Source: Halichondria panicea (Eukaryota; Porifera; Demospongiae; Suberitida; Halichondriidae). From it: a stretch of DNA of 64,000 nucleotides. Below are positions 1,144 to 59,660 of this stretch, one piece after another. The notes under the pieces are model-generated. The model saw only the letters and a list, made by a program, of their open reading frames with translations, did no database searches and was not told where the DNA came from. Position numbers and translations under genes: made by a program. The stretch's first letter is position 1. Each line of letters opens with the position of its first letter. The stretch lies in contig NC_087382.1 of NCBI RefSeq assembly GCF_963675165.1, positions 4,565,963 to 4,629,962 of the forward strand. The letters run 5' to 3'.

Positions 1144-2283
1144 ATCAAGAGCGTACTGTCCGTTCTCCTTCTTGCCTGTGGGCGTGAACACCCTCATCAG
1201 CACGCCATTGGAGTCCCGCCCCTCTACATGGTCAAACTCTCCCACGATGAACGCCAGGAGGTACGTGGACATGATGGGAGTGCGGGCCAACATCACTCTC
1301 TTTAAACCACCCTCTACATCCTCACAGCTCGTCTCGTTCTGTGGAGTGGGTGGGTGTGCGTGCAGATCAATTCATATAGTTGGGTGGAGGGTGACAGTAT
1401 ATTAATCTCTCAATTTTCTTAAAAGGCTGCTTTTCGTAAGCAATTGCAATTAAGCAACCTATAGTTGCTGTTAAGAGGGGTAGCTACAAATTGCATGATC
1501 GGTTTTGACCACAACATAAATTATAGAATTTTTACACATGATTCATCACAATCAGTAGACTTAATATAGTACAATAGGGCAAGGTCTAGTACATTGTTCT
1601 AGAAAGACAAAGTCAATCAGAATGGGGGATTTCCACGGGTTTCCCCACCAGTGCATAGAGTACAATAGTGAAAGCTCTAGTGGAAAGATAAGCAATAGTG
1701 ACCCCAAGCATATGTCATTTATACACATGTATATCTCACTACATGTGTTAAATGTATAATTATACTCACCATGTTGGACAGAGCCACAAAGTCCTTGGGT
1801 ACAATGAGGGTGACATTAAAGGAGGCCTTGATGAAAGGTTCGTCCCAGCAGAGGAGGGCTCGGCGGGTATCAGCTGCCTGTGCATGTGCACGTGTGTGTG
1901 TGGTGGAAAACATAAAATGCAAACCGAGTTGGGTGCACATTCGTCCATGAAACCTTGACCTATTCAACATTTCAAATTTCTCAAACAGGAAGATGACCAT
2001 TTTCCAGTTCATACACAATGTTTTCGTCTGCCTTATTTTATTTAGCATCGCAACATGAGCTTCTTTCCAAAATACTAACAAGGGGTTAGTTATGCTTTCC
2101 GTATACCTCATTCTATCTATACCAATGAATGAAAAAATGTATTACGAAACGGTAGTCATAACAATAATCACACAATCTATGCAGACTGTCGCTAGATACG
2201 AACACATAAAATAAAGATATTAACACACTAAAGAGTCACACTCTACAAGTATCTTACACAAAATAAACGAAAGATATAATCAT

Positions 2284-3951: not shown

Positions 3952-5468
3952 TATTTTTGTGCATTTGTGCCTTTTATGCAAAACATGCAATAATCATAAT
4001 TATAATGATTACGCCCACAGGAAGTTAATTAGGACTGAATATGTAATTCTGAATCAAGTGGTATAGAAAACCCATTTATTGCACATAGAATAAACGGAAA
4101 ATGAAACTATACACACATAGAATTTATACAGCTAAGAAACTAAATCTTAGTAAAATGACAGGTAATTGGTGGGTGTGGTTTCTGTCCCCCCCCACATTTT
4201 CAAGGATCTATAGTCAATAATACCGGGTAATTTCGTTAGGTAAAACTTGATCGTTTGCTTCTGGTTCCGATAAACCACGCCCACGTTTTTAGGGTAAAAT
4301 TTGGGTCGAGGTTAGCTTACCACGAAAATACTCACTATATACGGTAAGTGATACAGTAGAACCTCGCTAATCCGAATAAAGCGGGACCAGACCCCATGCA
4401 TCCGAATACATGACATTTCCAGATTAATGGATGTCATTAAAATTAATTATTATGAATATCGTTAATGAAGACACTTGTATTATATAATACCGTATAATCT
4501 GGTTAGTAAGAGCATGCGCCTATAGGGAAAAGCAGGCCTCTATCCGATGCGCTTATAGAGATTAATCACGCCCATGACGTTTCAATTAACAACAAACAAT
4601 TAAGCAACCTATAGTAGCTGTTAAGAGGGTACCTACAAATTGCATGACCGGTTTTGACCACAACAGAATTTTTACACAACATAAATTATAGAATTTTTAC
4701 ACGTGGATTCATCACAATCAGTGGACTTAATATAGTACAATAGGGCAAGGTGTAGTACATTGTTCTAGAAAGACAAAGTCAGCTAGTGTAGCTGTGTAAT
4801 CAGAATGGGGGATTCCACGGGTTTCCCCACCAGTGCATAGTAGAGTACAATAGTGAAAGCTCTAGTGGAATTAAGATAAACAATAGTGACCCCAAGCATA
4901 TGTCATACACATGTATATCTCACTACATGTGTTAAATGTATAATTATACTCACCATGTTGGACAGAGCCACAAGGTCCTTGGGTACAATGAGGGTGACAT
5001 CAAAGGAGGCCGAGGTTCGTCCCAGCAGGGGAGGGCTCGGCGGGCATCAGCTGCCTGTGCATGTGCATGTGTGTGTGTGGTGGAAAACATAAAATGCAAA
5101 CCGAGTTGGGTGCATATTCGTCCATGAAACCTTGACCTATTCAACATTTCAAATTTCTCAAACAGGAAGATGACCATTTTCCAGTTCATACACAATGTTT
5201 TCGTCTGCCTTATTTTATTTAGCATCGCAACATGAGCTTCTTTCCAAAATACTAACAAGGGGTTAGTTATGCTTTCCGTATACCTCATTCTATCTATACT
5301 AATGAATGAACTTAAAAAAAAAGTATTACGAAACGGTAGTCATAACAATAATTACACAATCTATGCAGACTGTCGCTAGATACGAACACATAAAAATAAA
5401 GATATTAACACACTAAAGAGTCACACTCTACAAATATCTTACACAAAATAAACGAAAGATATAATCAT

Positions 5469-24238: not shown

Positions 24239-24627
24239 CTGCATGGAGGCAAAGGGGAAGAGGCATACAAAGTATACAAACAAGAAAGTAAGGGCATAAA
24301 GAGTATACCAGGAGTATACTCCAGATTAAACAAACAATTTTTCAGTAATTTTACAAAGGCACAATGAAGCTATGAAGGTTGTAAGTTAAGTAGCTCTCAG
24401 GGCTACCGTACTTCTTTGGCACGCATACTAAAAAATCAACATCCCAGTGTGATATGGTGTGACATGGTCCTTTAGAGATCCTTATACATGTAGGTCTCAA
24501 AATCCAATTGACACCAGAGGAAACAATACTAAAGCAACGCTTACCCTAGCACTTTGTTGCCAATGATTTTGAATAGATTGTAGCAACTAACTACACGGTA
24601 GAGTAACTTGTAATTGACCACACCCAC
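24239..24627. other. PSA-2 intron 6
   Basis: AT-rich intron, collinear with 49259-49648 in PSA-1. No additional feature seen. Confidence 0.6.
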
Positions 24628-24826
24628 CTGTAAGTGACGAGCCCCCAGTTCTCCATGGCACCAGCTGCAAAGTCCTGGATGGCGATGAGGTCCATCTTTG
24701 GCAGAGGGTACTTGATGTCAAAAAGTAGGTGGCGTAGAAGGGGAGGGTCTTCACAGCAACCTGGGGGGTAGAATGTGTGCTAATGATACAGCAACCTGGG
24801 GGGTAGAATGTGTGCTAATAATACTG

Positions 24827-27353: not shown

Positions 27354-28928
27354 CTAGGTACATTTTTCTTTTTCTTTTTTTGTACAAAAATCGGGGTCAA
27401 CTAGGTGATACCACGGTATGAGCACAGACATCATCACACTAATCATATATCCAGTGAGCTGAATTATTCGACCAGCGTGCCTTAGCGGGCTCAGATTTGC
27501 TCTTTGTTCGACGTGCAAAAACACAGGATAAAGGATAACTATTACAATAATAGTTACAATAATCACAGAAGCAATAACACATTTGAAACAACGTTGAGAT
27601 TTTTTCCGACTCCACTTGAGTAGACAAGTGTTGAGAGTTGCGAAAATAACCAATTCCACACGAGTGAATGTCAACAAACCACCCATTGCCGAGCTGGCCA
27701 TAGTGAAATCGTAAACTAGTTTGTAGCATACAGCAGTTTGCTTTTGATTGTCAACAATCTCAGTGCAGTTGGCGGTGATAGGTTCCTCATCGAAGTTGTT
27801 GTCAAGGATATAGCAGTCTCGACTGGTATCGCACATTAGATCAGATTTGACAAAAAAAACATCAGCTCCTACAGACAAAGTAAAAGCAAGCCAGAACAAA
27901 GCTTTAATGATCAATATGAACTGAAAGTAATTTGATTTTTCCAGCACTGGAATGTCATCAACGTACACAACTTGCCGGCCAAGTTTATCAATATAAGCCA
28001 CTCTTGGTGTGTCTCTCAGCACGCCTTGGTTGCTCCCATACACAATTCTAACAACACCATTGAAAAGTCCCATTAACAAAAAATATATACGCCACCATGG
28101 AATTTTAGAGCAAATTTTACGCAACCATTGCCAAAGACGTACATAGCTGGAATGAGTACAACACTTTCGGACACATCTGTTACATGGACGCTCGTCATTT
28201 GGCACATCATCGGCAAAGGCAACTGGAGTGGGAGAGTCAAGTACAAACTCTTCAGTCCTTTTACCAGAGTCTGTTCTATCCAATTGAATGATCTCCAGCA
28301 TAGGCACACTCTTTTCCTGGCGACTGGCGACTGACAAGCGACTGGCTTGAGGTGTGCTAGTGCTTTCAGCAGGAAGAGTAGATGTGCTCTGTTCCAATTC
28401 AGAGCTACATTTACACTTAGACATGCGATGACAAGGTTTTTCATTTCGCTTGGTACAATCTATACATTCACATTCTTCGCATAAGAGTTTTTTGCAATGT
28501 GTACAGTGACAAGTTTCGCAAAGACAAAGTTCTGGAGGCTTCCTTGAGCATTCATCGCATCCTGGGAAGAAATGACAGCTTTTGTAAGAGTCTTTCTTAC
28601 GATCACTACCATCGTCAGGATTGCTATTCTCACCAGGAACCAGGGGATCACTAGCCTGAACACGGTCAATACAGTCCTCACAAGCACAAGGTGCTGGGTC
28701 GTCCATACACATGAGACGGTTGCAACGCGTGCAGTGACAATCGCATGCCTTAGGGCAGTAGCTGAACTCCTGTAGAGCTTCTTTGAGTCTGTCCTTCTCT
28801 AAACAGCACACAACACACCACATAATAATCACTAGAGAGACCAACAATACACAAGCAAACCATATGAGGATAATCGGGACTATGTCAAACTCTAGGTAAC
28901 AGCTCTCAACATGACAGATGTTACCCAT
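27354..28928 (-). CDS. Nested cysteine-rich multi-pass membrane protein, 524 aa (unit 2, copy A)
   Basis: The predicted protein is the same as that of 2284-3858, starting [12 protein letters not shown]. It has one N-terminal membrane segment, a Cys/His-rich region, a linker and about five hydrophobic C-terminal segments. It lies in the intron between exons 4b and 4a of PSA-2 on the same strand. The four 22-bp repeats before the start codon are also conserved (28936-29021). Identity to its unit 1 partner reflects the recent 25-kb duplication, so it says nothing about selection. Confidence 0.8.
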   Translation of the reverse strand: MGNICHVESCYLEFDIVPIILIWFACVLLVSLVIIMWCVVCCLEKDRLKEALQEFSYCPKACDCHCTRCNRLMCMDDPAPCACEDCIDRVQASDPLVPGENSNPDDGSDRKKDSYKSCHFFPGCDECSRKPPELCLCETCHCTHCKKLLCEECECIDCTKRNEKPCHRMSKCKCSSELEQSTSTLPAESTSTPQASRLSVASRQEKSVPMLEIIQLDRTDSGKRTEEFVLDSPTPVAFADDVPNDERPCNRCVRKCCTHSSYVRLWQWLRKICSKIPWWRIYFLLMGLFNGVVRIVYGSNQGVLRDTPRVAYIDKLGRQVVYVDDIPVLEKSNYFQFILIIKALFWLAFTLSVGADVFFVKSDLMCDTSRDCYILDNNFDEEPITANCTEIVDNQKQTAVCYKLVYDFTMASSAMGGLLTFTRVELVIFATLNTCLLKWSRKKSQRCFKCVIASVIIVTIIVIVILYPVFLHVEQRANLSPLRHAGRIIQLTGYMISVMMSVLIPWYHLVDPDFCTKKEKEKCT

Positions 28929-30539: not shown

Positions 30540-32096
30540 CTAGGTACATGTACATTTAAGTGTACAAAAGTCGGGGTCAACTAGGTAATACCACGGTATG
30601 AGCACAGACATCATCACACTAATCATATATCCAGTGAACTGAATTATTCGACCAGCGTGCCTTAGCGGGCTCAGATTTGCCATTAATTCGATGTGCAAAA
30701 ACACAGGATAAAGGATAACTATTCCAAGAATAGTTACAATAATCACAGAAGCATTAAAAAATTTGAAACAACATTGACATTTTTTCCGACTCAACTTGAG
30801 TAGATAAGTGTTGAGAGTTGCGAAAATAACCAATTCCACACGAGTGAATGTCAACAAACCACCCATTGCCGAGCTGGCCATAGTGAAATCGAAAACTAGT
30901 TCGTAGCATACAGCAGTTTGCTTTTGATTGTCAACAATCTCAGTGCAGTTGGCGGTGATAGGTTCCTCATCGAAGTTGTTGTCAAGGATATAGCAGTCTC
31001 GACTGGTATCGCACATTAGATCAGATTTGACAAAAAAAACATCAGCTCCTACAGACAAAGTAAAAGCAAGCCAGAACAAAGCTTTAATGATCAATATGAA
31101 CTGGAAGTAATTTGATTTTTCCAGCACTGGAATGTCATCAACGTACACAACTTGCCGGCCCAGTTTATCAATATAAGTCACTCTTGGTGTGTCTCTCAGC
31201 ACGCCTTGGTTGCTCCCATACACAATTCTAACAACAGCATTGAAAATTCCCATTAACACAAAATATATATGCCACCATGGAATGTTAGAGCAAAACCATT
31301 GCCAAAAACGTACATAGCTGGAACGAGTACAACACTTTCGGACACATCTGTTACATGGACGCTCGTCATTTGGCACATCATCGGCTGGAGTGGGAGAGTC
31401 AGGTACAAACTCTTCAGTCCTTTTACCAGAGTCTGTTCTATCCAATTGAACGATCTCCAGCATAGGCACACTCTTTTCTTGGCGACTGGCGACTGACAAG
31501 CGACTGGCTTGAGGTGTGCTAGTGCTTTCAGCAGGAAGAGTAGATGTGCTCTGTTCCAATTCAGAGCTACATTTACACTTAGACATGCGATGACAAGGTT
31601 TTTCATTTCGCTTGGTACAATCTATACATTCACATTCTTCGCATAAGAGTTTTTTGCAATGTGTACAGTGACAAGTTTCGCAAAGACAAAGTTCTGGAGG
31701 CTCCTTTGAACATTCATCGCATCCTGGGAAGAAATGACAGCTTTTGTAAGAGCCTTTCTTACGATCACCACCATCGTCAGGATTGCTATTCTCACCAGGA
31801 ACCAGGGGATCACTAGCCTGAACACGATCAATACAGTCCTCACAAGCACAAGGTGTTGCTGGGTTGTCCATACACATGAGACGGTTGCAACGCGTGCAGT
31901 GACAGTAATCGCATGCCTTAGGGCAGTAGCTGAACTTCTGTAGAGCTTCTTTGAGTCTGCCCTCCTCTAAACAGCACACAACACACCACATAATAATGAC
32001 TAGAACGACCAACAATCCACAAGCAAACCATATGAGGATAATCGGGACTATGTCAAACTCTAGGTAACAGCTCTCAACATGACAGATGTTACCCAT
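30540..32096 (-). CDS. Nested cysteine-rich multi-pass membrane protein, 518 aa (unit 2, copy B)
   Basis: Partner of 5469-7025; start chosen at the conserved MGNICH (32096), although the frame is open to 32153. It differs from the unit 1 copy by an Ile-to-Leu change in a membrane segment (TILGIV, codon near 30727). It lies upstream of exon 4b of PSA-2, so it is between the lost 5' exons and the surviving part of that copy. Confidence 0.8.
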   Translation of the reverse strand: MGNICHVESCYLEFDIVPIILIWFACGLLVVLVIIMWCVVCCLEEGRLKEALQKFSYCPKACDYCHCTRCNRLMCMDNPATPCACEDCIDRVQASDPLVPGENSNPDDGGDRKKGSYKSCHFFPGCDECSKEPPELCLCETCHCTHCKKLLCEECECIDCTKRNEKPCHRMSKCKCSSELEQSTSTLPAESTSTPQASRLSVASRQEKSVPMLEIVQLDRTDSGKRTEEFVPDSPTPADDVPNDERPCNRCVRKCCTRSSYVRFWQWFCSNIPWWHIYFVLMGIFNAVVRIVYGSNQGVLRDTPRVTYIDKLGRQVVYVDDIPVLEKSNYFQFILIIKALFWLAFTLSVGADVFFVKSDLMCDTSRDCYILDNNFDEEPITANCTEIVDNQKQTAVCYELVFDFTMASSAMGGLLTFTRVELVIFATLNTYLLKLSRKKCQCCFKFFNASVIIVTILGIVILYPVFLHIELMANLSPLRHAGRIIQFTGYMISVMMSVLIPWYYLVDPDFCTLKCTCT

Positions 32097-32486
32097 CCTG
32101 CATAGCTCAGACAGTAACTGATTTATTTTTGTGCATTTGTGCCTTTTATGCATATAATCATAATGATTACGCCCACAGGAAGTTAATTAGGACTGAATAT
32201 GTAATTCTGAATCAAGTGGTATAGAAAACCCATTTATTGCACATAGAATAAACGGAAAATGAAACTATACACACATAGAATTTATACAACTAAGAAACTA
32301 AATCCTACAGGTAATTGGTGGGTGTGGTTTCCTCCCCCCCACATTTTCGAGGATCTATAGTCAATAATATCGGGTAATTTCGTTAGGTAAAAAACTTGAT
32401 CGTTTGCTTCTGGTTCCGATAAACCACGCCCACGTTTTTAGGGTCAAATTTGGGTCGAGGTTAGCTTGCCACGAAAATACTTACTA

Positions 32487-38338: not shown

Positions 38339-38362
38339 GTTTCGGACCAGCGAGGTTCTACT

Positions 38363-39190: not shown

Positions 39191-39349
39191 CTGAGGTTGT
39201 ACTACAAAGATCTTGTAGCAATTAATTAATATAAAACGGTCACTTTTCTTTCGATAGAACTGTACCTCGAAGCAAAATATTAAAAATACCACGTAAGAGC
39301 AGCTCAATGCGCATGTGCTGGTACCTGCAGTGTGCGCATAGCTCTAACA

Positions 39350-39393
39350 TAGCCTCGATTCAAGGCCGATTAATCTGCCTGGAATCGAGGCTA
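39350..39393. mobile_element. 44-bp TAGCCTCG-family hairpin, unit 2 copy
   Basis: Copy of 14286-14329. Confidence 0.8.
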
Positions 39394-39548
39394 GCTCCAA
39401 CACAGCGTGCACAATGATTTTTTGAAATTTATCAGTAGCCATGCCGACTATAGAGTCGGTCTATAGTCGGCTAAAGCGGGGAAAGGGTTAAATCATTGTT
39501 CATCGATTATCAAATAACTGAAACTAAAACACGCTTCTAACCCCACAG

Positions 39549-40815: not shown

Positions 40816-41108
40816 GCTGAAACAATTCGTGAACTCATTTAAAAAAAAAAAGTTTTTGTGTTGTGTTAACTATAGCGCTATAGCCTCCAAGAACTATCAA
40901 TGTATTTTATACAATTATTTTATATATACTGTACATGTATTATATAATCAAGTGTAATTAAATTTCGAGATAATTCCAAATTTTATTCATGTTACTAATG
41001 TGTGCATGCGCACACTGATATTAATTAATACAAGCAATTCAATAAGGTCACTAATACAGTTGTAAGCACTGTCACTGTTTCAGCAGTTCCAAACATGCAA
41101 TCTCTCGA

Positions 41109-44100
41109 TCACTGACTGGCTAGCCACTCCTTGACGATGTCTCGGTCCCTCTGTAACCATTTGGCGTTGAGTCGAATGGCCTCACAGTTTTGCTTGACGA
41201 TTCTCGCAGCCACTGGCCATGGGTTCTCTGAGAAGAACTTCTCTATTTCACCAGCTCTCTCCTCACTCACAAAGCCAGCAGTGGACACCTGCATGGAGAG
41301 GGAGAGACAACATTTTAATTATAATACACCAGAGACAATTAATTTAAAACTCATACATTCACTAAAGTCTAGTTGAGTTGCCGGCCCCCAGAAGTTCTGT
41401 GGACAATAACTATGCTTCATTTATAGGCTTTATATGAAATTAATTCTTAATTATAGATTTCTAGATAGAACCAGCTTTTTTAACAATGGCCGCTGCATAC
41501 TTATATCGCCAACCGGTACCTCCCCCACACACACTCACATCGATCATCCTAGCCAGCAGGAACTGGCCGTTGTAGCGGTCCTTGAGCATGGTCCAGTTCT
41601 CCTGTACAAACTTCCAGACCCTCTCTCTAGAGTCTGGACACGAGCGGGTGAGGGACATGAGGACTGCAGGGAGGTCCTGGGGGCGTACCTTATCCTGTGA
41701 GAGGGGTAAAGGGATTTAATACTCACATAGTATTATTATACAGACTAGCTGAAAATGCTGTGTACAAATAATTTATAATATTATTGTACGGTACACCAGA
41801 CTCATGCATGCACTGTATACATGGATACCAAATAAGAGCACGGGAGATCAACCAACACTTCAAAGGAGGACCTACATGCCAATTAAGGACCGGTGCTTCC
41901 CTGCATGTACCAAGCAAGATGCCCATGTAAACTATAGTATGAATATTTGTAACTGTATTATGAGTCACAGTACAGAAACATGAATGACATGCACATTAGT
42001 TGAATTACACAAACCACATACACACGTACACTTAGTAGTATACATGTACAAGCAAAGAACAAACTTTGATTAATAATATGCCCCATGCAGAGTATACTAT
42101 TCATGTACATCCCTCGACTTATGCGCACTGATGCATAACCATATAATTGAAATTCTTGATCTGCTTTTATTTATTAGTAGTCCATACAAGGTCACACCCA
42201 CCCCGCCCCCTCACTCACACTGGTGGCAAAGTCGAGGCACTTGGTGATGAGTGTTTCTGTCTTCCCGTTGCCTAGCGAGCTGTAGATCCTCACCTTCTCC
42301 TCGTTGGAGTCAGCCTTGTCGTGGAGCTGCAACCAAATAACAATAGTCACCTAAATTTACTTAACAAAATTTTACATACTGTGGAAGTAAAAACTTCCAG
42401 TCCACTAGATCTGGAAGTATAAAAATGGTACCATAATCCTTATGGTTAATGACAATCATGTAGTCTTCGAAGAAACAGTGCTTAATTGAGGTACTGTAAT
42501 AAATGTACGGGTATTTCATGTCAATTAAGTATAGGCAACCAATATCGAGGTTTCCATGTACGACAATACAGTAGGAAGACGACGAGACAATAATGTGGTA
42601 GTCATTGCATGCTTAGTATTGTCAGGAACAAACGATCCTGGTTATCCTATATTTCAACTCCCTTATAATTATATGCAAGTCTTGTATACGCACTATTTGA
42701 GTTGATACTTGTATAACAAAACCCCCAAAGTACATGTATCAACTGATATTTGAGACCAACAGCTTTCCATTTATAGAACAACTCACCGCCACTAGATGGT
42801 CGAAGATAGATTCATCCCCACCACTGAGAGCAGCTGAGAACACGGCACTCTTAATGTCAGCAGGGATGGCGTCCTTCTCAGAGACATGGTCGCTAAATCT
42901 ACGCTTGGACTCAGATATCATGTCCGGGTCACCATAGCGACCAAGCTGACCAATCACAAGACTCCGCAGCATTGTGTCCAGAGTACCTACATGTACGAGC
43001 GGATGAAATCAATAATCACGAAATGGATTTGTACATGTGAGATATCGGAAATGCATTTCCTGTATACCTGTCACAAATAATTATGCCACACATAAAAACA
43101 GATTGAGGACTATTTATAACCTCCCTGCTATGCTGACAACTTTAACTTTAATGCTACAGCTCCACTAAAGTATAAAATACAAGAGATGAAAACTTAAGAG
43201 ATTGTGCTGGGGGGGGGGGGCTCCTGCATATACTTATTTAATATGGCCTCTAGCTGACATAGTCTAGTTTAACGAGGCCGGAGAGGGCCGGGGGTGAGCC
43301 CCCTCACCTTGGATACGCCTTCTATTTCTTGCTCACCTCCCGGCCTTTCCCCGGCCTCGTTAAATTAGCCATGTTTAATGTTAGGACCGAAGTTTTCAGG
43401 AGACCCCACCTCCCAAACAATCTCTAACTCTTATTAAGTTACAAGTCTTAAATGTACTCACTGTCAGTGTCTTTACTGTCCCAGCCAAGTCGTGCAAAAG
43501 ATGGAGTCAATAGTTTGAGAGCAAATCTCTTGAAATCCTCGTAACAATCGGTGGAGGAGAAGAGACGAGCGAGGCTGCCAATGTTGGAGGCAAGGCTTTC
43601 CCACACCGTGTACGATGTCTCGCTAATAAACGAGCCAATCAGACGCAAGACGTCCACGGTGCTGCCCACTCCAGCACGAGCCTACGTATGTATATAATTA
43701 TACAAAGTAGAAATAATTTTATTAGATATCGTGGTGTACAGTGTGAAAGTATTACGGGTTTGTCATATCTCCCTTTAGGCAAAATGAACGAAATACCACA
43801 GAATACTATCAAAGGCTTACAAAGAGGAGCCCTCGATACTATAAGCTAGCCTCTTCAGTCAATCTGCATAAGAATTACTACAATGACCTTTGCCGTTGAC
43901 ACGTATTACACTACGTTATCTACCCTTCAAATACAAGTGTGTGTGTGTGTGTGTGTGTGGGCGGGGGGTGACGTACAAGAGCGAAGGTGTCATTGAGTAG
44001 CCCGAGGCGGTCCTGTGCTGACAGCTGCCCCAGAATGGAGAGGATGGGGGAGAGAAGAGTGGCCGAGTATGACACACGGTAGAAACCTTGACGACTTGGG

Positions 44101-47100: not shown

Positions 47101-50100
47101 GTGGGTGTTCATCTAGATGCATATTCAAATGACTTGAGGTGCAGAGTGTTGCTACACTACTTAAGCAAACCAAGTAAGAGAATTAATGTACATCAGCAAA
47201 AGTACTGTAAAACAATAGAGCATTTGTTCGGGAGAAGTGGAGATGTCGAGCCAAAGTAGCAAAAGCATGCATGGTCCTCATCCTATGTTGAATCCGTAAC
47301 AGTGCTACAGATACTCTTTGAAAATCTAGGCACTTAGGAGAAGTTCAAGCAAAGATACACATACATCTGTACATAATTATGAAGCTTGTGGGTAGATCAA
47401 AATCATGATCAGCTTTGTTTTGTGGTTTAGTGGTGTGAGTACTCACTTCAACATTCAAATGAATCAACCTACTTGAAAAGTACTGTACAGGGTTTTGCAG
47501 AGTCTTTGAAATAGAGGGTGTAGAGCGTTCCTTATATGGATATCTAATGTTTACACATTGTGGTGTCATATACACATTGTGGTGAAATGCCAAGTCTGAT
47601 TGAGAAGCAAAATTCAAACTTTTTCTTGTGAAAAAAGCTGACCAAGGGAATATAAGGTGGAGAATAATGCATCAGACAGAGCTGCTTGGACTGTCTTATC
47701 AAAGTGTTGCTGAGAATCTTCAAGTTGATCCATCAACTGTTTGTAGAATAGTGCATTGTTGACATGCTGACTAAGATCTACAACTTTATGGTTGACCACA
47801 GATAACCTTATAAGGAACGCTCAACGCAAAACGCTTTTTTGTGGATATTGCAAAGATTCTGCAAAACCCTGTACATCTGATGTACAGTATATGCCTACAT
47901 TCTCTATTATAATTATACTCTTGGTATTATTAGGCCTTCCCCTTGGTTGGCCTTCCAAAAATTTTGAGAATTATATTGACTGTCTCATCTGTATGCTTTC
48001 AAGTCTTAACTGCACCTTTTATAGTGTGACCCAGTGTGAACTTATTGTGGTGTTGCATATAACACTCATGAATAACATTACAAACAGTAAATGGAATGCA
48101 AGAATAATTGATATTGTATACTATACTGACAGCCGTGACAGGAGATCCTGCTTCATTGAACATACCACTGTCTACACTCAACACTATAATTATAGAGAAG
48201 TAATGTTTCATCCTTCGCTAATTATACAATTTAAGCTGTTAGAAAACAATAGTACACACTAGGACAAATGGAATATATACGTATTTGAAAGCACTATAGC
48301 GTCTGGGATACTTCTGAAAATCACATAAATCGCTGCCAGAGCACAAGTTACATATATACATGTATGCTAGTTTGAGATGCTACTCCTCCGATAATACAAG
48401 GTTGGTAAATGATACGATTATAGACAGTACACTATAGCACAATGACACTACCCCTAAGCACAAGCGTTCGGAAAATCTACCTTGGACCCAGAGGAGGATC
48501 GTCAAGGTCAAAAGGTCTTAATCATAAAGCTATTTCCGGAGGACTTTCCACTCAACTAGCTCCATGTGAATTGGAGATACTAAAGGAAGAGTAGATGATC
48601 AATTAAAGTCCTCCGGAAGCAGCTTTTTGATTAAGACCTTTTGACCCTGACGATCTTCCACTACCTTGGACCCAAAAATTATAGTAGCAGTGTTTCTATA
48701 GACACAGACCAAGTAAGTGGCTTACCTCAATGGGATGAGAGTTATCGAGGGCGTCTAGATTTAGAGCACTGGCGTACTCTCGACTGAGGAAGTTGGTCCA
48801 AATCTCGAACTCTGGGTGGGTGTGGTCAACGCACAGGTATTCAATCCAAGTGGCGAAACCCTCGTTAAGCCAGAGATGGGTCCACCACTCCATGGTCACC
48901 TGACGTGGGCAATTAACATACATGTTAACGGAATTTATATTACTGCATGAACACTCACTAAACCAACCCCACACTCCACACTTATCACACTCCCCACTCC
49001 CACACTTATCACTCCGGCTCTATATATACCCTCACTATTTTTCACACTATCCCCACTTTCTACACTTTCCGCCCCCGCACTCCTCACACTATATAATTAT
49101 ATCATCACCACTCTTCACACCACCCCACCCTCCTCACACCTCACACCCTCACCAAGTTGCCGAACCACTGATGAGCGATCTCATGACCCACAACGAGGGC
49201 CACCAGCTGTTTAGTGAAGGCTGATGAGTTAACAGGATCAACCAGCAGCAGCCGCTCCCTGCATGAAGGTAAAGGGGAAGAGGCATACAAAGTATACAAA
49301 CAAGAAAGTAAGGGCATAAAGAGTATACCAGGAGTATACTCCAGATTAAACAAACAATTTTTCAGTAATTTTACAAAGGCACAATGAAGCTATGAAGGTT
49401 GTAAGTTAAGTAGCTCCCAGGGCCACCGTACTTCTTTGGCACGCATACTAAAAAATCAACATCCCGGTGTGACATGGTCCTTTAGAGATCCTTATACATG
49501 TAGGTCTCAAAATCCAATTGACACCAGAGGAAAAATACTAAAGCAACGCTTACCCTAGCACTTTGTTGCTAATGATTTTGAATAGATTGTAGCAACTAAC
49601 TACACGGTAGGTCTTGTAGGAGAGTAACTTGTAATTGACCACACCCACCTGTAAGTGACGAGCCCCCAGTTCTCCATGGCACCAGCTGCAAAGTCCTGGA
49701 TGGCGATGAGGTCCATCTTTGGCAGAGGGTACTTGATGTCAAAGTAGGTGGCGTAGAAGGGGAGGGTCTTCACAGCAACCTGGGGGGTAGAATGTGTGCT
49801 AATGATACAGCAACCTGGGGGGTAGAATGTGTGGTAATAATACTGCTAGTGATACAACACACTGGGGGGTATATAAAATGCTACGCAAACATTGAGGTAT
49901 ATAACTTAAGTTTGTGGGAGGTCAAATTATAACTTCAAAAATAAATCTGCTACTCTAATGGTGGTTGATTTATAATTTTAGCTCTAAGGGAGGTCTATCA
50001 ATAAACTCTGTCAAGTAATTAATTTAACTCACATCAAGAGCGTACTGTCCGTTCTCCTTCTTGCCTGTGGGCGTGAACACCCTCACCAGCACGCCATTGG

Positions 50101-53100
50101 AGTCCCGCCCCTCTACATGGTCAAACTCTCCCACGATAAATGCCAGGAGGTACGTGGACATGATGGGAGTGCGGGCAAACATCACTCTCTTTAGACCGCC
50201 CTCCACATCCTCACAGCTCGTCTCGTTCTGTGGGAGGAGGGGGAGTGTGTGTGAAGTAGGTGGAGTGTGTGTGTGTGTGTGCAGATCCAGAGGAGGTCCG
50301 ACAGGCGCGGTGCAGCTCAAGTAATTAGCCTCTGATTACTCTCAGCAAAAACATACGACGTGGACGGATAATTATTGTTAATTGCCTGAGCTGCACCGCG
50401 CCTGTCGTACCTCCTCTGGTGCAGATCGATTCATATAGTTGGGTGGAGGGTGACAGTATATTAATATCCCAATTTTTTTTAAAAGGCTGCTTTTTGTAAA
50501 GCAATTGAACAATTAAGCAACCTATAGTTGCTGTTAAGAGGGGTAGCTACAAATTGACCGGTTTTGACTACAACATAAATTATATAATTTTTACATCAAT
50601 TCCGCATCACAATCATGAGACTACAGTATGCTAGTACAATAGGGCAAGGTCTAGTATATTGTTGTAGAAAGACAAAGTCAGCTAGTGTAGGCTGAATGGG
50701 GTAATCAGAATGGGGGATTTCCACGGATTTCCCCACCAGTGCATAGAGTACAATAGTGAAATCATGTCATACACATGTACATGTATATCTCACTACATGT
50801 ATTAAATGTATAATTATACTCACCATGTTGGACAGAGCCACAAGGTCCTTGGGTACAATGAGGGTGACATCAAAGGAGGCCTTGATGAGCGGTTCGTCCC
50901 AGCAGGGGAGGGCCCGACGAGCATCAGCTGCCTGTGTGTGGGCAGGGGAGGGCACATGTTAGTTACACTCACAACTAGATACACACCCATCCACTCTACA
51001 TATATCTACCAACGAGTAAACATCTTTTAGTAATTTAGTAAACGTCAAGCTTTGACAAGTATACACACAAAGTAACAGATAATATTTATTGACACTCTCA
51101 CACAGCCAAACATTGACAACTGAAAAGTCACACAATACAGACTAAAACTGTTTAAAAGACAGTTGCTACAAGAACAGGAAACATATCACACTATAGACGT
51201 CTCAACAATTCTACAGACTAGACATAACACATACACTAGCTAGGTACAGTTGCAGTTATCTTTACAAAAGTTGGGTTTAACTAAAAGATACCACGGTATA
51301 AGCAGAGACATTATTACGCTGGTAAAGTAACCAGTGACTTGAAACGCTCGACCAGTGTGCCTTAGCGGACTCAAACCCTTTGCAGCTTCAGAAACACCAT
51401 ACCCCACAATTGCAAGTAGTATCAAAAGAGCTATAATAATTATCAAGCTGACACTAAGTATGAGCCAAATTCTAGCTTTCTTTTTGAGTAGAACTTTCTT
51501 GAGTAGAGCAGTGTTAATAGCTGTGATAATAGTTAATTCAAAACGAGTGAACGACAGCAGACCACCCATTACCGATAATGCCATAGTGTAATCGAAAACT
51601 AATTCGTAGCATACAGCACTTTGCTTTTGATTGTCAACAATCTCAGTGCAGTTGGTGATAGGTACCTCGTTGAAGTTGTTGTCAAGGATATAACAGTCTC
51701 GACTGGCATCACAATTTAGATCAGATTTGACAAACAAAGCGTCAGCTCCTACAGATAAAGAAAAAGCAAGCCACAGCAAAGCTTTAATGATCAATATGAA
51801 CTGGAAAAAATTTGCTTTTTCCAGCACTGGAATGTCATCAACATACACAACTTGCCGGCCCAGTTTATCAATATAAGTCACTCTTGGTATCTCTCTCAGC
51901 ACGCCTTGGTTGCTCCCATACACAACTCTAACGATGAAATTAAATAGTCCCATTAGCTCAAAGTACACAAACCATAGCTTTGAGTAGTCACATCTAAATT
52001 CAGTTTGACATTCTGCATCCTTAAATCCAACTTCAGTTTCGTTATCTTCGTTAGAATCTGCTCTACTCACTATCTCCATAATTGGTTCTAGCGTAGGTAG
52101 ACACTCGACTCTAAGTGGAGGTGTACTATATATAGTGCCTTCAACTGAGGGAGTAGGTGAGTTAGAATCCGATTTAGGCCTGCACTTGCAATTACATGTA
52201 GATGTGTGATGGCAATATTTCCCATTGCAATCTGCACATTCACATGCCTTACACTCGAGTTTCTTACACTTTTTGCAGTGACAAGTTTCACAAAGACAAG
52301 GTTCTGGAGGCTTCCTTGAACACTCATTGCATCCTGGGAAGAAATGACAGCTTTTGTAAGAGTCTTTCTTACAATCACCACCCTTGCCATTGTCACCGGA
52401 GGCCAGGGGATCACTAGCCTCAACACGATCAATACAGTCCTCACAAGCACAAGGTGTTGCTGGGTTGTCCATACATTTGAGACGGTTGCAACTAGTGCAG
52501 TGACAGTACTTGCATGCCTTAGGGCAGTAGCTGAACTCCTTGAGGGATTTTTCGAGTTGGTCTCTCTTGAAGCAGCACAAACTACACCACATACAACCTG
52601 CTATAGAAATGAAGAATCCAAAAATTATCCATATGAGGATAATGGGACCAATGTCCCAATTTAGGTAACAGCTCTCAACATGGCAGAAGCTACCCATCCT
52701 CTTAATAAGCACTATATAGCACAGAGTGAAAACTTATATATTTTTGTGCATTTATTTTGCAAAACATGCTAATGATTACGCCCACAGGAAGTTAGGACTG
52801 AATATGCAATTTTGAATCACGTGGTATAGAAACCCAGGAATGCATTATTGAATAAACTGAATTACACACATAGAATTGATACGACAGCATACAGTAAAGA
52901 AACTAAATCCCAGTCAGGGTTTCATACAGAGGGGGGGGGGGGCGCCCTGGGATTTCCCCCACCTGGAAATATGAAAAATTAATGATGTCATACCATTTCA
53001 GATAGATCTACATGTAGCTATAATGATTATTCTACGTGTATCAGTTGAGAAAAAGTCTCTTACATACATCAGGAGTGCTACATGTATATCCAATCTAGCA

Positions 53101-56100
53101 CATGGTACAGTTCAAAGTTCAGACAGGGATCACATGCATGTATACAATTATTATTATATGATACCCTTTGAAATTTAAAACTTACAACATAAGTAGTGCA
53201 TGTACATAGTGGGACCATAGATAGAGTAGAGAGGGATTGGCAACGGAAGTGGTTCACGTGATGTTTTACAATGAAGTCTATGTAGAGCTCAGAAACAATC
53301 CGTGTTTCGCTTTCTACCCGGGTAAGTTTACCAGGAAACTTATTGAGTCTAATCATGGCTAATGCATGCGTCTCAAAGACCCCTCTAACACACAAATGCC
53401 CCCTGATGGTGAGTATCATTTGGAAACGAAGAAAATAAAATCTTGATTGTCATGAAGTAGCTAGTCTAACACAGAGCAATTTTTCATGCTTGTGTTAGTT
53501 TAGCTACGTTATAGTTAGAACATGGGTACGAGGTATATATCTATGTGTTATAGTGTCCCAAAGCTCGAGGGCTTTAGCCCGAGGGATGAGGGACACTATA
53601 ACCATAGATACCGAATGCACATGTGCTAGATCCCACTTTTCATTGGCTGCCTCAGGCAAGAAGTGTATCTATAAAAGCAGCAAGCCTTAGCACAGCTTTA
53701 TTTTGAAAATGTCCTGTTCTGACAAGCTAGATGATTTCTGCTTCTCTGCTAAAAAAACCTTTGCATTGGCCTTGCTTCAACATTGGAACTAGTGACTCCA
53801 CCTTGTGCAGGAAGCGCTCTGCAACAAATGAGCCCAGCCTCCTCTTTTTTCTGCACTCAAGCCCCACCCCAGCTCAAGCTTCTCAGTAAACTGTTCTGAT
53901 CTGTACGGCTAGCTAGCAAGGAACAGCTTGCAGCAATGCTACAGTGCACTATCGTTCCCAAAAAGACACAGGAGTCTACTGAAGTAAACAATTTGAAACA
54001 TGGCTGCAGGATAGAAACAGAAGTCAGGAGGACGAAGTTGACAAATGCTACAAGTTGAAGACATACTTTCATGCTTGTGACAATGGACCCAGAACTATTA
54101 AAATCATTGGCTCTTAGTGTTCCTCGTAGAGACAAGAAAAGATACTGGGGAACTCTACCATCAACCCAGCAAACGCTATAGAAACTGGTAGTGAAAAAAC
54201 TGAACAGCCATAGCTAATTATCATGCAGCTACAGCTATTATCATTTCTGTACATTCAAAAAATTATACTTGTACTTTATACCCTCAAGCTTATAATTCCC
54301 TGGGAAACTATGAGATTATGGCTCATAATTCCCTGCTAAACACACACAAGTGGGATCTAATATGATATAGCTAAGGTTGTGTCACTAAGTAGTGTGCTGT
54401 GTCCCAACTGGCCACAAGTATTTGATGAAGTTGATGTTTAGCAGCAGAACTGCTCGTGGACTTTTTACAGACAGCAAAAACAATTCTCATGAATTCTTCA
54501 TGTTTAGACCCCACGTTGGAAGTAAGCCTCGATTAAAACCGCGGGGAAACACGGATGGTACTTCGAGGGTACCTCGTTTCCCAATCCCTCTCTACTCCAT
54601 CTATGGTGGGGCCATAGGCTCTGTACACACATGCACTAGAGGTCAATTTGAGTACCTTTTCTGCTTTGCTAAAAAAATGTTTTTTTTCCGGTGAGTTGAA
54701 GGTGTACAATGCAGTAAGAACAGTTAAGAAATAGTTTTAAGCACAAAAACCTCCAAATTGCACCTTAGACAATCATTCTGCCAAATTTTCAACAGCGTAC
54801 GGCCGTCGTCATTTCCCCCCCTTGGCTAAAAATCCTGTATGAAACCCTGCCAGTTCAATAGCTATAGACTACCTTATATAGCTAGCGGGTAATTTTCGTC
54901 GGGGTTGAACTTGAACAGCGGTAATTTTCGTAAGTAAAAATTTCGTCCAAGATGTAGCAATACTTACTTTCATCACAATCATAATCAGAAGCTACAAAAA
55001 AAATATCAAAAAATGTTGACAAGCAAACGACAGTCAGCAATATAGATTTCAGTGTCAGAGCCAAATGCAGCAAAAAAGCCTTCTCAAGAATTGGAACATT
55101 GTTTATGTAGGCAATCTCCCTACCACGGCAATCAACACTACGTAATGTTTTGATTTCTCTTAGCGGACCTAAATTTCCACCATAGAAAACATTGCCAGCT
55201 CTTAAGAGGCTATTCATTTTGAAAGTTTTTTTGAAAAAGTATTTAATATTTTTGTAAAGGCTTTTACATGAACAAGAGATGTTTCGCTCAATAGAAGAAG
55301 AACAACCTTCACAACAACCTCCACACCACAGCATGACAAACAGTATATGATAACATCACAAATACCCCAAACTTTCAAAGCCTTATGCTTTATGACACCT
55401 TTGCAGTCTTCACATCCTGGCCTAGGATGCTTTCCTTTAAATGAAGTTCCTTCCCGGCAAGAAGAGAGGATCACTCTCTAAACTGTTTGGCAGAACTAAA
55501 GACAAAGATGTTGACCTGAGGCACGAACTAGAAGCAAAGACACAGCAATCAAAGTCCATCGATTTTGCAGCACTGGAGAAAAAGAAAGATGTTGAATTGG
55601 TCGAAACATTTATTACAAGTGCACGCACTGGAGCCATCACTGCACTTTAGATGGCCACAATTACGACAATAACAGTTTCCACAAGGAGCCTCTTTGTCAC
55701 AAGTTACACTCTGCTTTTTTAGACAACAATAATGCTGGCAAAAAGGTGCTACGACAAAAACACCTATAGACACACCTCCAAAAACCCATGTTAATAAAAT
55801 AGGCAATAAATCCAACAAAAGAAACACAAGTTCCACATAACGACTCATGATAGAAGACTTTCTTGTTAGCTCTAAATTCTGCTCAAGTTGCGAATTAATG
55901 TACGTTTCTAATTACTCGCACGTGGTTTTAATGAGATTTATTGCATTTTCCAATTATCTGCGAGTACGACTCTCATTTTTGCAGAAATTAATGACCCGCA
56001 AAAATATGTCACCTTTTACAAACATCATTAAAACTGTGTGCGCCCATTTAGATCCGTGCAGAAGAGGGACAGGTCTCATTTGGTCGCTAATTACGCTATT

Positions 56101-57436
56101 AAAAGAGGCATATTCGAGTATTAAATTGACTTCAAAAATTCTGGGCACACCACTGTTAACAGTATAATTATGTGTATCCCACATACCTCAAACTGAGTGA
56201 CTCCAGCGTATCTCTCCTCATTAGGGAAGTCGGGATGAGTGTACTTGGAGCGATAGAATCCTCTCATCTGGTCGTTAAGGATACCAGTGTACTCCATGCT
56301 CACTGTCGTCTCTCCCACGGCAAGGTCAGAGGTCAACTGGAGGGTGACAGTCTCAGCTTCAACATCATACGTCACAGTTACATCTGTGGGCAGGAAGGGT
56401 GTGGGCAGGAAGGGTGTGGGCAGGAAGGGTGTGGGTAGGAGGGGAAATCATCTATTAATTGCTGTACACATTTCCCACTAGTGTATCGTAACAGCCATGT
56501 ACGTTTACCAACTAGGGTATTTCCCTTCAGTGTTGTTACATTCCACTGTAGATAGGGTGCTTTCCCTCACCCTCTTGATATCGCAATACATTTGATATTA
56601 GATAGGGTGCTTTCCCCTTATATTGCTACATAACTATGATTGTACGCTAGGTATTTTCCCTTTGTTATTATTAATAGCAACGGCTTATAAAGAGAAATCT
56701 CCTTATAAATCCTTGGTCAAAAATAAACTAGTCATGGACCATGAGTTGAAATGTTGATGAGGCAGTTGTAATCTATTGAAATTAGTTTACCACTTCTTGA
56801 AAATGAAGTATATTGCAAACCAATAAGCACACACACACACACACACATACACACACACACGCACCTTGACCTCCACACTTTGCAGAAGTAATCTCAATCT
56901 CAGCAGAGTTCAGAACAATCCGATTGGTCGATTTTTTTACCTGTAGTTTATACATACAACTTATCCACAACTACTAATCCCATTAGGAGGTATATTCATT
57001 ACTACCATTACTTCCTACAAGTTGGTACACCAAATGATACACTGAACGCAGGAAGGTATCGGATAAGATACGGTAAAGCGTATAGTTTATGATAATCTAT
57101 TAAATCCGAGACAATCAATATTCAACACTAGCACTGGAGATCACACTTTAACACCTACAGTATAATTATTAAATTATAACTGCGTAAATTGTAGTTTAAC
57201 CTCAACGCTAAAGCTTGGTCGTCCGATATCCGATAGCCTTGTATCAGCCATGTTAACTATGCATCAAAGCATGCAGCTATAGTACTAGCTCATGCAGCCA
57301 GCTCACTCACATCCATAGTGATGTCGAGTGTGCCAGTGAACTTGAACAGTTTGAGGTCTGGCCTCAGCTCCAGTTTGTAGTTGGTGGGCACTACATCAGT
57401 AGGAAGACGCTCGAATGGTTTCTTATCAGCAGCCAT
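41109..57436 (-). CDS. NPEPPS: Puromycin-sensitive aminopeptidase (M1 family), complete, 19 exons
   Basis: Zinc aminopeptidase that removes N-terminal residues from cytosolic peptides. Exons: 57311-57436, 56865-56940, 56187-56383, 50824-50931, 50033-50227, 49649-49779, 49153-49258, 48726-48899, 45760-45864, 45555-45615, 45392-45501, 44982-45045, 44753-44886, 43977-44105, 43462-43681, 42787-42986, 42219-42326, 41539-41694, 41109-41288 (TGA). All have GT-AG borders, phases agree, and the sum is 2580 nt (859 aa). Exon 1 reads [20 protein letters not shown], like vertebrate PSA. GAMEN is in exon 6, HEIAH in exon 7, the third zinc ligand Glu in LNEGF in exon 8. The frame is open to an ATG at 57487, adding 17 residues (MQATTTELLTLLIVLGT); human PSA also has an upstream Met. 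Intron 3 holds a nested gene, a broken paralog and transposons. Confidence 0.95.
43273..43359. mobile_element. 87-bp TTAA-flanked palindromic MITE, unit 2 copy
   Basis: Copy of 18209-18295, in the intron between PSA-1 exons 15 and 16. Confidence 0.65.
45129..45337. mobile_element. ~210-bp MITE between PSA-1 exons 12 and 11
   Basis: Copy of 20065-20275, diverged by several substitutions and indels; ends TACCGTATTACTAGAAT and its inverse are clear here. Confidence 0.7.
46200..46410. repeat. 19-bp minisatellite, about ten copies, unit 2 only
   Basis: TCCATGCATGAGCATCAGG repeated, in the intron between exons 8 and 9 of PSA-1. Unit 1 has a single copy at about 22246-22274, so this is a local expansion. 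Confidence 0.92.
46620..47923. mobile_element. 1304-bp DNA element inserted in PSA-1 intron 8
   Basis: Ends CAAGAGTATA and TATACTCTTG, flanked by GTATTAT on both sides (46613-46619, 47924-47930). Unit 1 lacks the insertion near 22490. Inside are nested inverted pairs: 46692-46820 against 46835-46948 (the TCTGTCAC / CCAATCCAAGCGTGGG block), about 46950-47015 against 47410-47488, and about 47495-47560 against 47811-47882. A decayed helix-turn-helix transposase frame lies at 47667-47762. It looks like a rearranged, non-autonomous element. Confidence 0.8.
47667..47762 (+). pseudogene. Transposase helix-turn-helix remnant
   Basis: The plus frame reads [20 protein letters not shown] then VCRIVH, followed by a stop. 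This is the typical N-terminal DNA-binding motif of IS630/Tc1-like transposases (GLSYxxIAxxLxVxxSTVxRI). Traces of the following part appear on both strands at 47525-47570 and 47811-47850 (PYKERST). The catalytic domain is absent. Confidence 0.55.
47924..48725. other. PSA-1 intron 8, left part
   Basis: AT-rich; collinear with 22500-23631 of unit 1 but without the 256-bp MITE. It contains an imperfect inverted pair around AGGTCTTAATCATAAAGCT (48516) and its complement (48620), a small hairpin also seen at about 23405-23540. Confidence 0.6.
48966..49140. repeat. CA/CCCCAC-rich imperfect repeat in PSA-1 intron 7
   Basis: Shorter version of 23871-24122, abutting the exon 7 donor. Confidence 0.75.
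50288..50418. mobile_element. 131-bp CAGAGGAGG-family MITE in PSA-1 intron 4
   Basis: Ends CAGAGGAGGTCCGACAGGCG and the inverse (one mismatch), with a perfect 9-bp duplication GTGCAGATC at 50279-50287 and 50419-50427. Units 1 and 2 have the single site (about 1360-1368). Same family as the 2.4-kb foldback at 10837-13274. Confidence 0.92.
51240..52697 (-). CDS. Nested cysteine-rich multi-pass membrane protein, 485 aa (inside PSA-1 intron 3)
   Basis: Diverged paralog of the four genes in units 1 and 2, starting [19 protein letters not shown] at 52697 (the frame is open five codons further). It has the same arrangement: a membrane segment at about 16-43, a Cys/His-rich region to about residue 175 ([38 protein letters not shown]), a shorter acidic linker, then about five hydrophobic segments. 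The block around [20 protein letters not shown] and the CYILDNNF motif are kept, while the linker and late loops have changed much. A single frame of this length with many substitutions and no stop suggests it is under selection. It is intronless and on the same strand as its intact host gene. Function unknown. Confidence 0.85.
   Translation of the reverse strand: MGSFCHVESCYLNWDIGPIILIWIIFGFFISIAGCMWCSLCCFKRDQLEKSLKEFSYCPKACKYCHCTSCNRLKCMDNPATPCACEDCIDRVEASDPLASGDNGKGGDCKKDSYKSCHFFPGCNECSRKPPEPCLCETCHCKKCKKLECKACECADCNGKYCHHTSTCNCKCRPKSDSNSPTPSVEGTIYSTPPLRVECLPTLEPIMEIVSRADSNEDNETEVGFKDAECQTEFRCDYSKLWFVYFELMGLFNFIVRVVYGSNQGVLREIPRVTYIDKLGRQVVYVDDIPVLEKANFFQFILIIKALLWLAFSLSVGADALFVKSDLNCDASRDCYILDNNFNEVPITNCTEIVDNQKQSAVCYELVFDYTMALSVMGGLLSFTRFELTIITAINTALLKKVLLKKKARIWLILSVSLIIIIALLILLAIVGYGVSEAAKGLSPLRHTGRAFQVTGYFTSVIMSLLIPWYLLVKPNFCKDNCNCT
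52915..54849. mobile_element. 1.9-kb CAGGGTTTC-type element in PSA-1 intron 3
   Basis: Ends CAGGGTTTCATACAG and CTGTATGAAACCCTG, flanked by a 5-bp duplication CCAGT (52910-52914, 54850-54854). The 5-bp flank and CAGGG end match the 605-bp element at 235-839, so the two may share a transposase type. It contains a poly-G tract at 52931-52942, a hairpin at about 53555-53615 (TAGTGTCCC / GGGACACTA), and a second inverted pair (53211-54618). No transposase recognised. Confidence 0.8.
53211..54618. mobile_element. Inner inverted-repeat pair, 1.4 kb
   Basis: GACCATAGATAGAGTAGAGA at the left faces TCTACTCCATCTATGGTGG at the right; the inner GGGATTGG / CCAATCCC also pairs. It is either a nested element or subterminal repeats of the 1.9-kb element. 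Frames inside (53857-54135 minus, 54392-54694 plus) have no recognisable domain. Confidence 0.6.
54882..55848 (-). pseudogene. Broken paralog of the nested cysteine-rich membrane gene
   Basis: Minus-strand frames match the family in order: 55848-55600 gives the N-terminal membrane segment and [11 protein letters not shown] / ACTCNKC cysteines; a second frame resembles SDPLFLPG at about 55450; a third (55460-55370) gives [11 protein letters not shown]; and 55334-54930 gives [20 protein letters not shown], then [14 protein letters not shown], a membrane segment and [10 protein letters not shown]. At least two frame changes separate these, and the C-terminal third is missing. It is much more diverged than the five open copies, so it is an old member. 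Short introns could explain some frame changes, but the missing end argues for decay. Confidence 0.7.
55849..56186. other. PSA-1 intron 3, upstream end
   Basis: AT-rich, between the broken paralog and exon 3. No feature beyond short chance frames. Confidence 0.55.
56384..56445. repeat. 15-bp tandem repeat at the exon 3 acceptor
   Basis: GTGGGCAGGAAGGGT repeated about four times, last copy degenerate, directly upstream of PSA-1 exon 3 (on the minus strand it forms the pyrimidine-rich tract before the acceptor). Confidence 0.85.
56446..56826. other. PSA-1 intron 2
   Basis: Contains three diverged copies of a motif around TAGGGTGCTTTCCC / TAGGGTATTTCCCTT (about 56513-56660). No gene seen. Confidence 0.5.
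56827..56864. repeat. (AC)n microsatellite running into the exon 2 donor
   Basis: On the minus strand the donor GTGCGTGTGTG is the first unit of the GT run, so the exon 2 splice site borders a length-variable repeat. Confidence 0.85.
56941..57310. other. PSA-1 intron 1
   Basis: AT-rich; contains GATACGGTAAAGCGTATAG near 57067, similar to the ends of the CCGTATAGCGGGT MITEs. No gene seen. Confidence 0.5.
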
Positions 57437-58335: not shown

Positions 58336-59660
58336 CTATTGATAATATACACCACTATCACCAGATGCAGATGAGTTTGGAATAGATAGCTCATCATCAG
58401 CGTCTCTAGAATCAGTTTGGTCGTCTTGCACTGCTGGAGCTACAAAAGGTGGTGCCTCTCCAGATATTTCCTTGCTCTGTGCCTCCTCAATTTCTGGTGA
58501 CTTGTGGATTTTTCCCTCAAGTTTTGGCACTGAAGTGTGCATGAGTATTATATAATTACGTCACATTGAATTAATAAGATACATGCATGCAGATTCTTAG
58601 CCTTCACAAGGCCTCAAAAAAGGATGCATGAGGCTAGCAGATTCTATACTATTAATAGTAGCTAAATATGGAGTTATAGACTACACAGTTACAGCCCTGT
58701 AATGCAATTGATGCAGTGTTGAATACGCCTTGCCCAATTATGCTACATTACTTTTGAGACTAATAGGTGCAGTGGAGCATTGAGCATTATGCTAACAATT
58801 TTTACCAAATGTTAGTAGAAAGTATTTATGGCTAGACTGGCTAGTAGTAGTGGCTACTGAGTATATACGTATGGAAGGTGCTAGTATAGTATTACTAGAT
58901 CAGTTGACTCTTCACCAATATAGTTCCTTATAGAAGGTTATATATAGCTATAGAAGCGTCAGTGATGTTGCAGTATAATTCTCGTTGATGATTTTTATTG
59001 AGACTAATGGGTAATTATTAAAGACTATTTAGTAAGACTAGTATACCGTATAGCGGGTAATTTTCGGGGGACAAAATATTCGTGGTTCAGCAATATTGAG
59101 ACATTTTGTGGGTAATATTTTCGTGGTTGCTGCTTGCACTGCAGGTAAAGGTAGGCAAGGTCGCTTCATTTGTGGGTAAAATATTCGTGGTCAGACCTCC
59201 AACCACGAAAACCACGAATATTTTGCCCCACGAAAATTACACGCTATACAGTATAGGTACAATGCATGAGACTTGCATGGAGACTAGACTAATAGGCAAA
59301 ATTTTGAGCATAATTTGGCAAGGCCTATAGTGTTGAATTGTATGCACTATTATAATGCTCTCTGTGGTCAATTTTGACATGGCAATAGCTATATATATAT
59401 ACTGCATGCAGGGCTTATTGCAATATTTTGCTGTATGACAACCAACCTGTATTAAAAACCACAGTTGGGGGAGGTTTCGCTCCAGTACTAGCACTGGCAA
59501 CCACCCCCATCCCACCCCCAAGAACTGCTCCGATCACAGCACCAGCACCTGCTGCAAGGCCAAATGATGGAATGCCAGCAGCAAGAGCACCAATCAAACC
59601 CCCAATTGTGGCACCCATACCGCCACTAGCTACTCCAACAGCAATCTTCTTTTTTTCCAT
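58336..59660 (-). CDS. Small two-exon glycine-zipper membrane-type protein, 135 aa
   Basis: Exon 1 (59447-59660) starts MEKKKIAVGVASGGMGATIG; its residues 6-58 are Gly/Ala/Val-rich with repeated GxxxG spacing, ending PPPTVVFNT. Exon 2 (58336-58529) joins in phase 1 (G|TG) and reads PKLEGKIHKSPEIEEAQSKE, then an acidic Ser-rich tail ending DSGVYYQ. The borders are GT (GTTGGT) and AG (CTTCAG). Glycine-zipper segments insert in or associate with membranes in many unrelated proteins; I cannot name a family. The frame is open upstream of the chosen ATG to 59786, so a longer N-terminus or another exon is possible. The 0.9-kb intron carries a MITE (59045-59252). Confidence 0.6.
59045..59252. mobile_element. 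~208-bp MITE, CCGTATAGCGGGT family
   Basis: ACCGTATAGCGGGTAATTTT at the left, and AAAATTACACGCTATACAGT at the right. Inner inverted pair AAAATATTCGTGGT / ACCACGAATATTTT. It lies in the intron of the glycine-zipper gene. Related to 22783-23038. Confidence 0.75.

Follow-up and report, generated by a model that had tools for sequence, protein, structure and literature searches.

A constrained single-frame gene nested within a PSA-type aminopeptidase intron belongs to a dispersed membrane-protein family in Halichondria panicea

The reading frame called F in this study is a genuine protein-coding gene that sits within a PSA-type aminopeptidase intron and shares the strand of its host. F is a constrained gene, and its family has no name in the libraries searched and is wider than the original prediction, made from this locus, had seen. 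Our evidence comes from the window, the whole 64,000-nucleotide stretch of DNA analyzed here, and from related loci in the same genome. It covers the copies of the gene and their host, the frequency of lesions in both, and the sequence features that F has in common with its relatives.

The nested gene, its copies, and the host locus

The positions of all features are given in Table 1. Five open copies and one broken copy had been predicted in the window, every one on the host strand, and all six are present. The block of 20 residues described as identical in the open copies was likewise found in 5/5, and it is not kept in the paralogue on contig C11. The five open frames reduce to three sequences (F, A, and B) rather than five independent ones, because A1 and A2 are the same and B1 and B2 differ at a single site. 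The TATA-like element TATATAAG upstream of F and the AATAAA downstream of it lend weak support to a transcript of its own. This TATA-like element is absent from A and B, and the AATAAA of A and B stands at a different place than in F.

A set of ten peptides from PSA exons of unit 3 of the locus, without exon 2, was placed on the window. Because the profile positions matched by the two flanking host exons are contiguous, F lies within one intron of about 5.3 kb, and for this copy the predicted nesting in a PSA intron stands. It does not extend to the copies in units 1 and 2. Exons 1 and 3 were matched in unit 3 only, so the A and B copies are no longer enclosed by a host gene that is complete. 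A copy of exon 4 adjoins each A and each B, which implies that the nested gene and this host exon were duplicated together. The host exon duplicates are truncated and frameshifted while the neighboring nested frames remain open. The exon 4 copies next to B1 and B2 have a 7-nt deletion, the exon 6 copies of units 1 and 2 have a 2-nt insertion, and one exon 9 copy has a 1-nt deletion; the remaining host exon pieces that were found have no frameshift. When each ancestral unit is counted once, the host exon duplicates have three frameshifts over 1155 nt, and A plus B have none over 3126 nt. For three lesions, the probability of every one hitting a host exon is 0.02.

Units 1 and 2 were compared over window positions 1-18900 and 25070-44000. 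The first 18 one-kb bins showed 0-0.2% mismatches, or eight mismatches in total over 18 kb, and a single gap, about 480 columns long, in the first of them. Beyond these bins the mismatch level jumps abruptly to several per cent, climbing to 0.7% and then to 3-6%; two bins had too many gaps for alignment. Gene conversion, a segmental duplication that occurred recently, or a duplicate created by the assembly could account for the near-identity. The locus may have expanded by tandem duplication of the block of gene and host exon 4, followed by segmental duplication.

Divergence between the copies was evaluated by the Nei-Gojobori method. The ratio dN/dS is 0.55 for F and A (dS 0.49, Fisher p 3e-6) and 0.60 for F and B (dS 0.45, Fisher p 1e-4), in both cases below 1. 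The original prediction took the unit 3 copy, diverged yet open, to suggest selection, and it proposed the comparison of F with A1 as a check. The diverged pairs agree with that suggestion, although the recent A-B pair, with dN/dS of 1.34 at dS 0.028, is indistinguishable from 1 (p 0.50). Because of the values for F against the diverged copies, we consider the frame to be under moderate purifying selection. Comparisons with the C11 copy are saturated at synonymous sites. Indels come in multiples of three in 14/16 cases for F-A and 5/5 for A-B. Neutral mutation of F or A to d of 0.245, 0.27, 0.35, or 0.49 introduced a mean of 10-16 stops and left 0/2000 frames open per setting; at d of 0.1, the open fraction was 0.0055 for F and 0.004 for A.

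Table 1. Positions of the nested gene copies, their sequence elements, and host exons (window coordinates, or coordinates of locus L009, which carries the C11 copy, where so marked)
Feature	Position	Strand	Basis or remark
Copy F	51240..52697	-	open frame, 485 aa, stop codon
Open copy A1, 524 aa	2284..3858	-	open frame
Open copy B1, 537 aa	5469..7082	-	open frame
Open copy A2, identical to A1	27354..28928	-	open frame and copy comparison
Open copy B2, one site different from B1	30540..32153	-	open frame and copy comparison
Broken, diverged, older copy in the same intron as F, one Cys/His module	about 54882..55911	-	
TATA-like TATATAAG, 36 nt before the F ATG	52733..52740	-	sequence; putative element
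AATAAA, about 150 nt past the F stop	51085..51090	-	sequence; putative signal
First Cys/His module of F, aa 65-88	52434..52505	-	pattern match
Second Cys/His module of F, aa 139-157	52227..52283	-	pattern match
Four-cysteine loop of F, aa 329-363, one N-glycosylation sequon	51609..51713	-	
Host PSA exon 1 (coding part), unit 3	57299..57436	-	exon peptide placement
Host PSA exon before F, unit 3	56229..56384	-	Peptidase_M1_N 60-123 match at 56121-56447, E 5.5e-10
Host PSA exon 4, after F, unit 3	50824..50931	-	Peptidase_M1_N 121-162 match at 50767-50958, E 3.2e-14
Exon 4 duplicate next to A1	1770..1877 (same at 26840-26947 next to A2)	-	
Exon 4 duplicate next to B1, frameshifted	4954..5054 (same at 30025-30125 next to B2)	-	
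Exon 6 duplicate, unit 2, frameshifted	24627..24760 (same at 34-167, unit 1)	-	
TBC exon upstream of the C11 copy	L009:8140-8382	-	PDB 5tuc residues 60-90, E 3e-4; no Pfam match
TBC exon downstream of the C11 copy	L009:2111-2335	-	RabGAP-TBC 51-88, E 0.0023, below cut-off
TBC exon downstream of the C11 copy	L009:1366-1620	-	5tuc 230-266, E 5e-10

A dispersed family and its conserved features

The gene had been seen only inside the PSA intron and its duplicates, and this restriction does not hold. The F branch is only part of a family of single-frame membrane proteins that is scattered over the genome, with members on contigs C1, C3, C4, C6, C9, C11, and C12. The genome searched was that of the window itself, 131 Mb in 39 contigs, the sole animal collection behind the family counts. 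Single-protein searches with four queries returned 21, 20, 38, and 24 matching places in overlapping sets. A profile built only from window, C11, and C4 members matched C1, C3, C6 (3.29 Mb), C9, C11 (5.2 Mb), and C12 with E of 1e-5 to 1e-19. When 1256 distinct reading frames of at least 50 aa, taken from loci L001-L048 and the window, were searched with a 12-member profile, 47 matched; none of the 1256 reversed frames did. The 47 matches include the members used to build the profile, overlapping loci, and fragments, and since the loci were fetched by similarity, the fraction is no genome-wide rate. The alignment contains 19 members, from those seven contigs; matches on C10, on C15, and at 6.3 Mb on C12 were left out of it. 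Judged from the genomic sequence, 18/19 aligned members have a single uninterrupted coding frame of 294-537 aa, and L047 is cut at 218 aa. Some relatives stand in tandem clusters. Two C4 relatives, at L011 1951-3210 (-) and L046 1360-2607 (+), have a long repetitive LNVNPVLNV-like tail after the last hydrophobic segment.

The nearest relative of F is the C11 copy, which is 38% identical to it over aa 241-484. Its host is a TBC1D15/17-type gene, an intron of which contains it, and the reading frame and the host exons are all on the minus strand; in addition to the exons of Table 1, L009:8645-8920 gave a weak match (E 0.85). Nesting was examined for the branch that carries the Cys/His module, in the window and on C11. 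With the PSA and TBC1D15/17-type nestings, this branch has two known places, each within an intron and in the orientation of the host.

The most widely conserved feature is a loop of four cysteines (329, 335, 350, and 363 in F numbering), which are kept in 18/19 rows; L015 is without two of them. The pattern C-x4/5-[DE]C-...-C-...-C stands ahead of a GG pair in 18/19 rows. The GG itself (378-379 of F), in the third conserved hydrophobic segment, is invariant in 19/19. The loop holds at least one N-glycosylation sequon in 18/19 rows, with none in L020 and with a fixed 45-residue stretch scored for L015, and in 11/19 rows a sequon falls at the third loop cysteine. Hydropathy was computed for 12 rows. 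F, A, and B have six peaks and the C11 copy has five; among the rows without the Cys/His module, 7/8 have five and L015 has four. About five C-terminal hydrophobic segments had been proposed for F, and five were found there, although the total is six with an extra N-terminal peak. The segment at aa 241-259, the weakest member of a C-terminal pair (peak 1.67), is also present in A, B, and the C11 copy. No counterpart was found in the short relatives, so that within these 12 rows the peak is limited to the module-bearing ones. Charge and sequons would suggest an N-terminus outside, a C-terminus inside, and the loop outside.

The Cys/His module comprises seven cysteines and one histidine in the pattern CxCxxCxxLxC...C..CxxC. 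F, A, and B each contain it twice, and the C11 and broken copies have a single one; the 15 remaining aligned rows lack the pattern. In the tree, which was rooted at the midpoint for drawing only, F, A, B, and C11 form a group with support 100/99, and a branch with support 99/97 unites them with five C4 rows. The simplest reading of the module's history would be one gain and one doubling.

The earlier statement that the protein belongs to no recognized family was upheld, as nothing in Pfam exceeded its cut-off and nothing in NCBIfam, PHROGs, or the PDB sequences was convincing. F gave no Pfam match at E<=1, A and B gave matches below cut-off only (0.14 and 0.013), and none of nine paralogue queries gave one over cut-off. 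When the 19 members were searched at E<=0.1, 11 Pfam families were hit by one or two members each. NCBIfam returned five families with one member each (best 4.5e-4) and PHROGs one family (0.0027), and the best E against PDB sequences was 2.6 for F and 0.021 for the family profile. We read these hits as chance matches of hydrophobic stretches. The candidate DUF3333 (PF11812) was rejected: it matched 2/19 members, with a best E of 1.6e-5 and 25.5 bits against a cut-off of 26.5, over one 40-residue hydrophobic stretch. A GPCR was also discarded, as 4-6 hydropathy peaks were seen in 12/12 rows against the seven spans of that class. With two family members as queries, no relative was confirmed in bacterial and archaeal contigs or in viral contigs by short exact peptide patterns, which reach close relatives only. 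No description of the family was found in open-licence PMC papers.

Several repeats and frames of other kinds were seen at these loci. The sequence TAATTATGCCTCG is the end of a dispersed repeat, present at window positions 10290-10302 and 35351-35363 (-) and in 7/54 loci; with one mismatch allowed, two were found in the window versus 0.03 expected. Window positions 62530-64000 contain about 160 copies of the 9-base unit GTAGCACTG, and the long open frames there are artefacts of this repeat. A helix-turn-helix-like stretch (VDPSTV) is common to frames at window 47604-47762 (+) and L009 3987-4250 (+), one of which lies just past the C11 reading frame; we take these frames to resemble pieces of transposases. 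Hydrophobic frames rich in GG and similar to glycine zippers occur at window 59415-59846 (-) and, beside the C4 cluster, at L013 5481-6164 and 7156-8010 (-). Inspection of retrieved cysteine peptidases by eye revealed no recognizable silicatein.

Proposed architecture and alternative readings

From sequence features we infer the function, topology, disulfides, and metal binding of the F family. In our main reading, with a probability of about 0.5, F would be a real nested gene of a dispersed single-frame membrane family that encodes a surface receptor or scaffold from its own transcript, multiplied by tandem and then segmental duplication. The protein would cross the membrane five times, with its N-terminus outside and its C-terminus inside. 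The extracellular loop after span two would be glycosylated, stapled by two disulfides, and turned toward a ligand or partner. In the cytosolic loop between spans one and two, the Cys/His modules may bind zinc or be palmitoylated, and they would recruit a cytosolic partner. For the family as a whole, we regard it as an evenly balanced proposition that this is an undescribed animal family of single-frame membrane-protein genes in which one branch gained, then doubled, a cytosolic Cys/His module; the copies of that branch, at two known sites within housekeeping-gene introns and oriented like their hosts, would stay coding even beside decayed host duplicates.

The same proteins could instead act as a channel or transporter in which the spans form the pore of an oligomer, the stapled loop lies between subunits, and the module serves as gate or sensor. 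The multi-span layout, the conserved stapled loop, and the GG where the third span begins would all fit such a protein. We nevertheless consider it rather unlikely, as no channel family in Pfam, NCBIfam, or PDB exceeded its cut-off and, within the spans, no charged or polar position was noted as conserved among the invariant columns. The position of the Cys/His region depends on aa 241-259. If this segment is a true sixth span, the region lies outside, and it would then form a disulfide-rich ectodomain that binds ligand directly. The hydropathy peak in F, A, B, and the C11 copy is consistent with this topology, to which we assign a slightly lower likelihood than to the channel. The lack of a counterpart in the short relatives speaks against it, as do basic residues past span one, which suggest from sequence a cytosolic side, and CxC and CxxC spacing, which is more usual for metal ligands.

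Compared with the five-span surface protein, explanations that deny the frames an ordinary coding role fare worse. The open copies might be genes in decay, or genes that died not long ago, and still be open by chance, which would be compatible with the A-B dN/dS near 1 and with the broken copy in the intron of F. This is improbable, however, given that F and A/B are all open at dS 0.45-0.49 with dN/dS of 0.55-0.60 and that the lesions fell in host duplicates with none in the nested frames. Least credible of all, and in our view very improbable, is a mobile-element gene or cargo. Single open frames on seven contigs could be explained by such dispersal, and of the 24 inverted-repeat pairs detected in the TBC intron, six enclose the C11 frame. 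Conversely, 0/20 pairs bracket F, and relatives also stand in tandem clusters. The arm motif of the C11 pairs is a dispersed repeat, since it also occurs at two window places away from the gene and in six further loci of 54.

Comparison with known systems

The Sprouty domain is a cytosolic cysteine-rich region with CxC/CxxC spacing, located at the membrane. F would have in common with it a cytosolic Cys-rich region of CxC and CxxC spacing at the membrane. Sprouty (PF05210) was considered for this spacing and rejected, as it matched none of the family loci and gave one weak match below cut-off on C7 (E 0.09). Tetraspanins, innexins, and other proteins of few spans have stapled outer loops with conserved cysteines. 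The F family resembles tetraspanins and innexins in its few spans and in the conserved cysteines of its predicted outer loop, but it differs from them in its five conserved hydrophobic segments and in its cysteine spacing, and neither was among the 11 Pfam families listed for the 19 members at E<=0.1. The four-cysteine loop, the GG, and, in one branch, the Cys/His module provide a sequence signature for a membrane family unnamed in the libraries searched. The locus also offers a case of nested genes that outlive the duplicates of their host, which is relevant to how genes inside introns survive and increase in number.

Some annotations of sponge genomes abound in nested genes, so that nesting in itself is ordinary; one study (PMC10282587) gives 2432 in Aphrocallistes vastus and 3358 in Amphimedon queenslandica, along with many single-exon transcripts, and its passages on nested genes name no such protein family. 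As the study states that some annotation programs omit nested genes, families of this kind may be under-annotated. Like the sponge nested genes described there, F is contained in an intron of another gene. Unlike those genes, as far as these passages describe them, one branch of this family is nested at two places and has kept its frame where the host duplicates have decayed.
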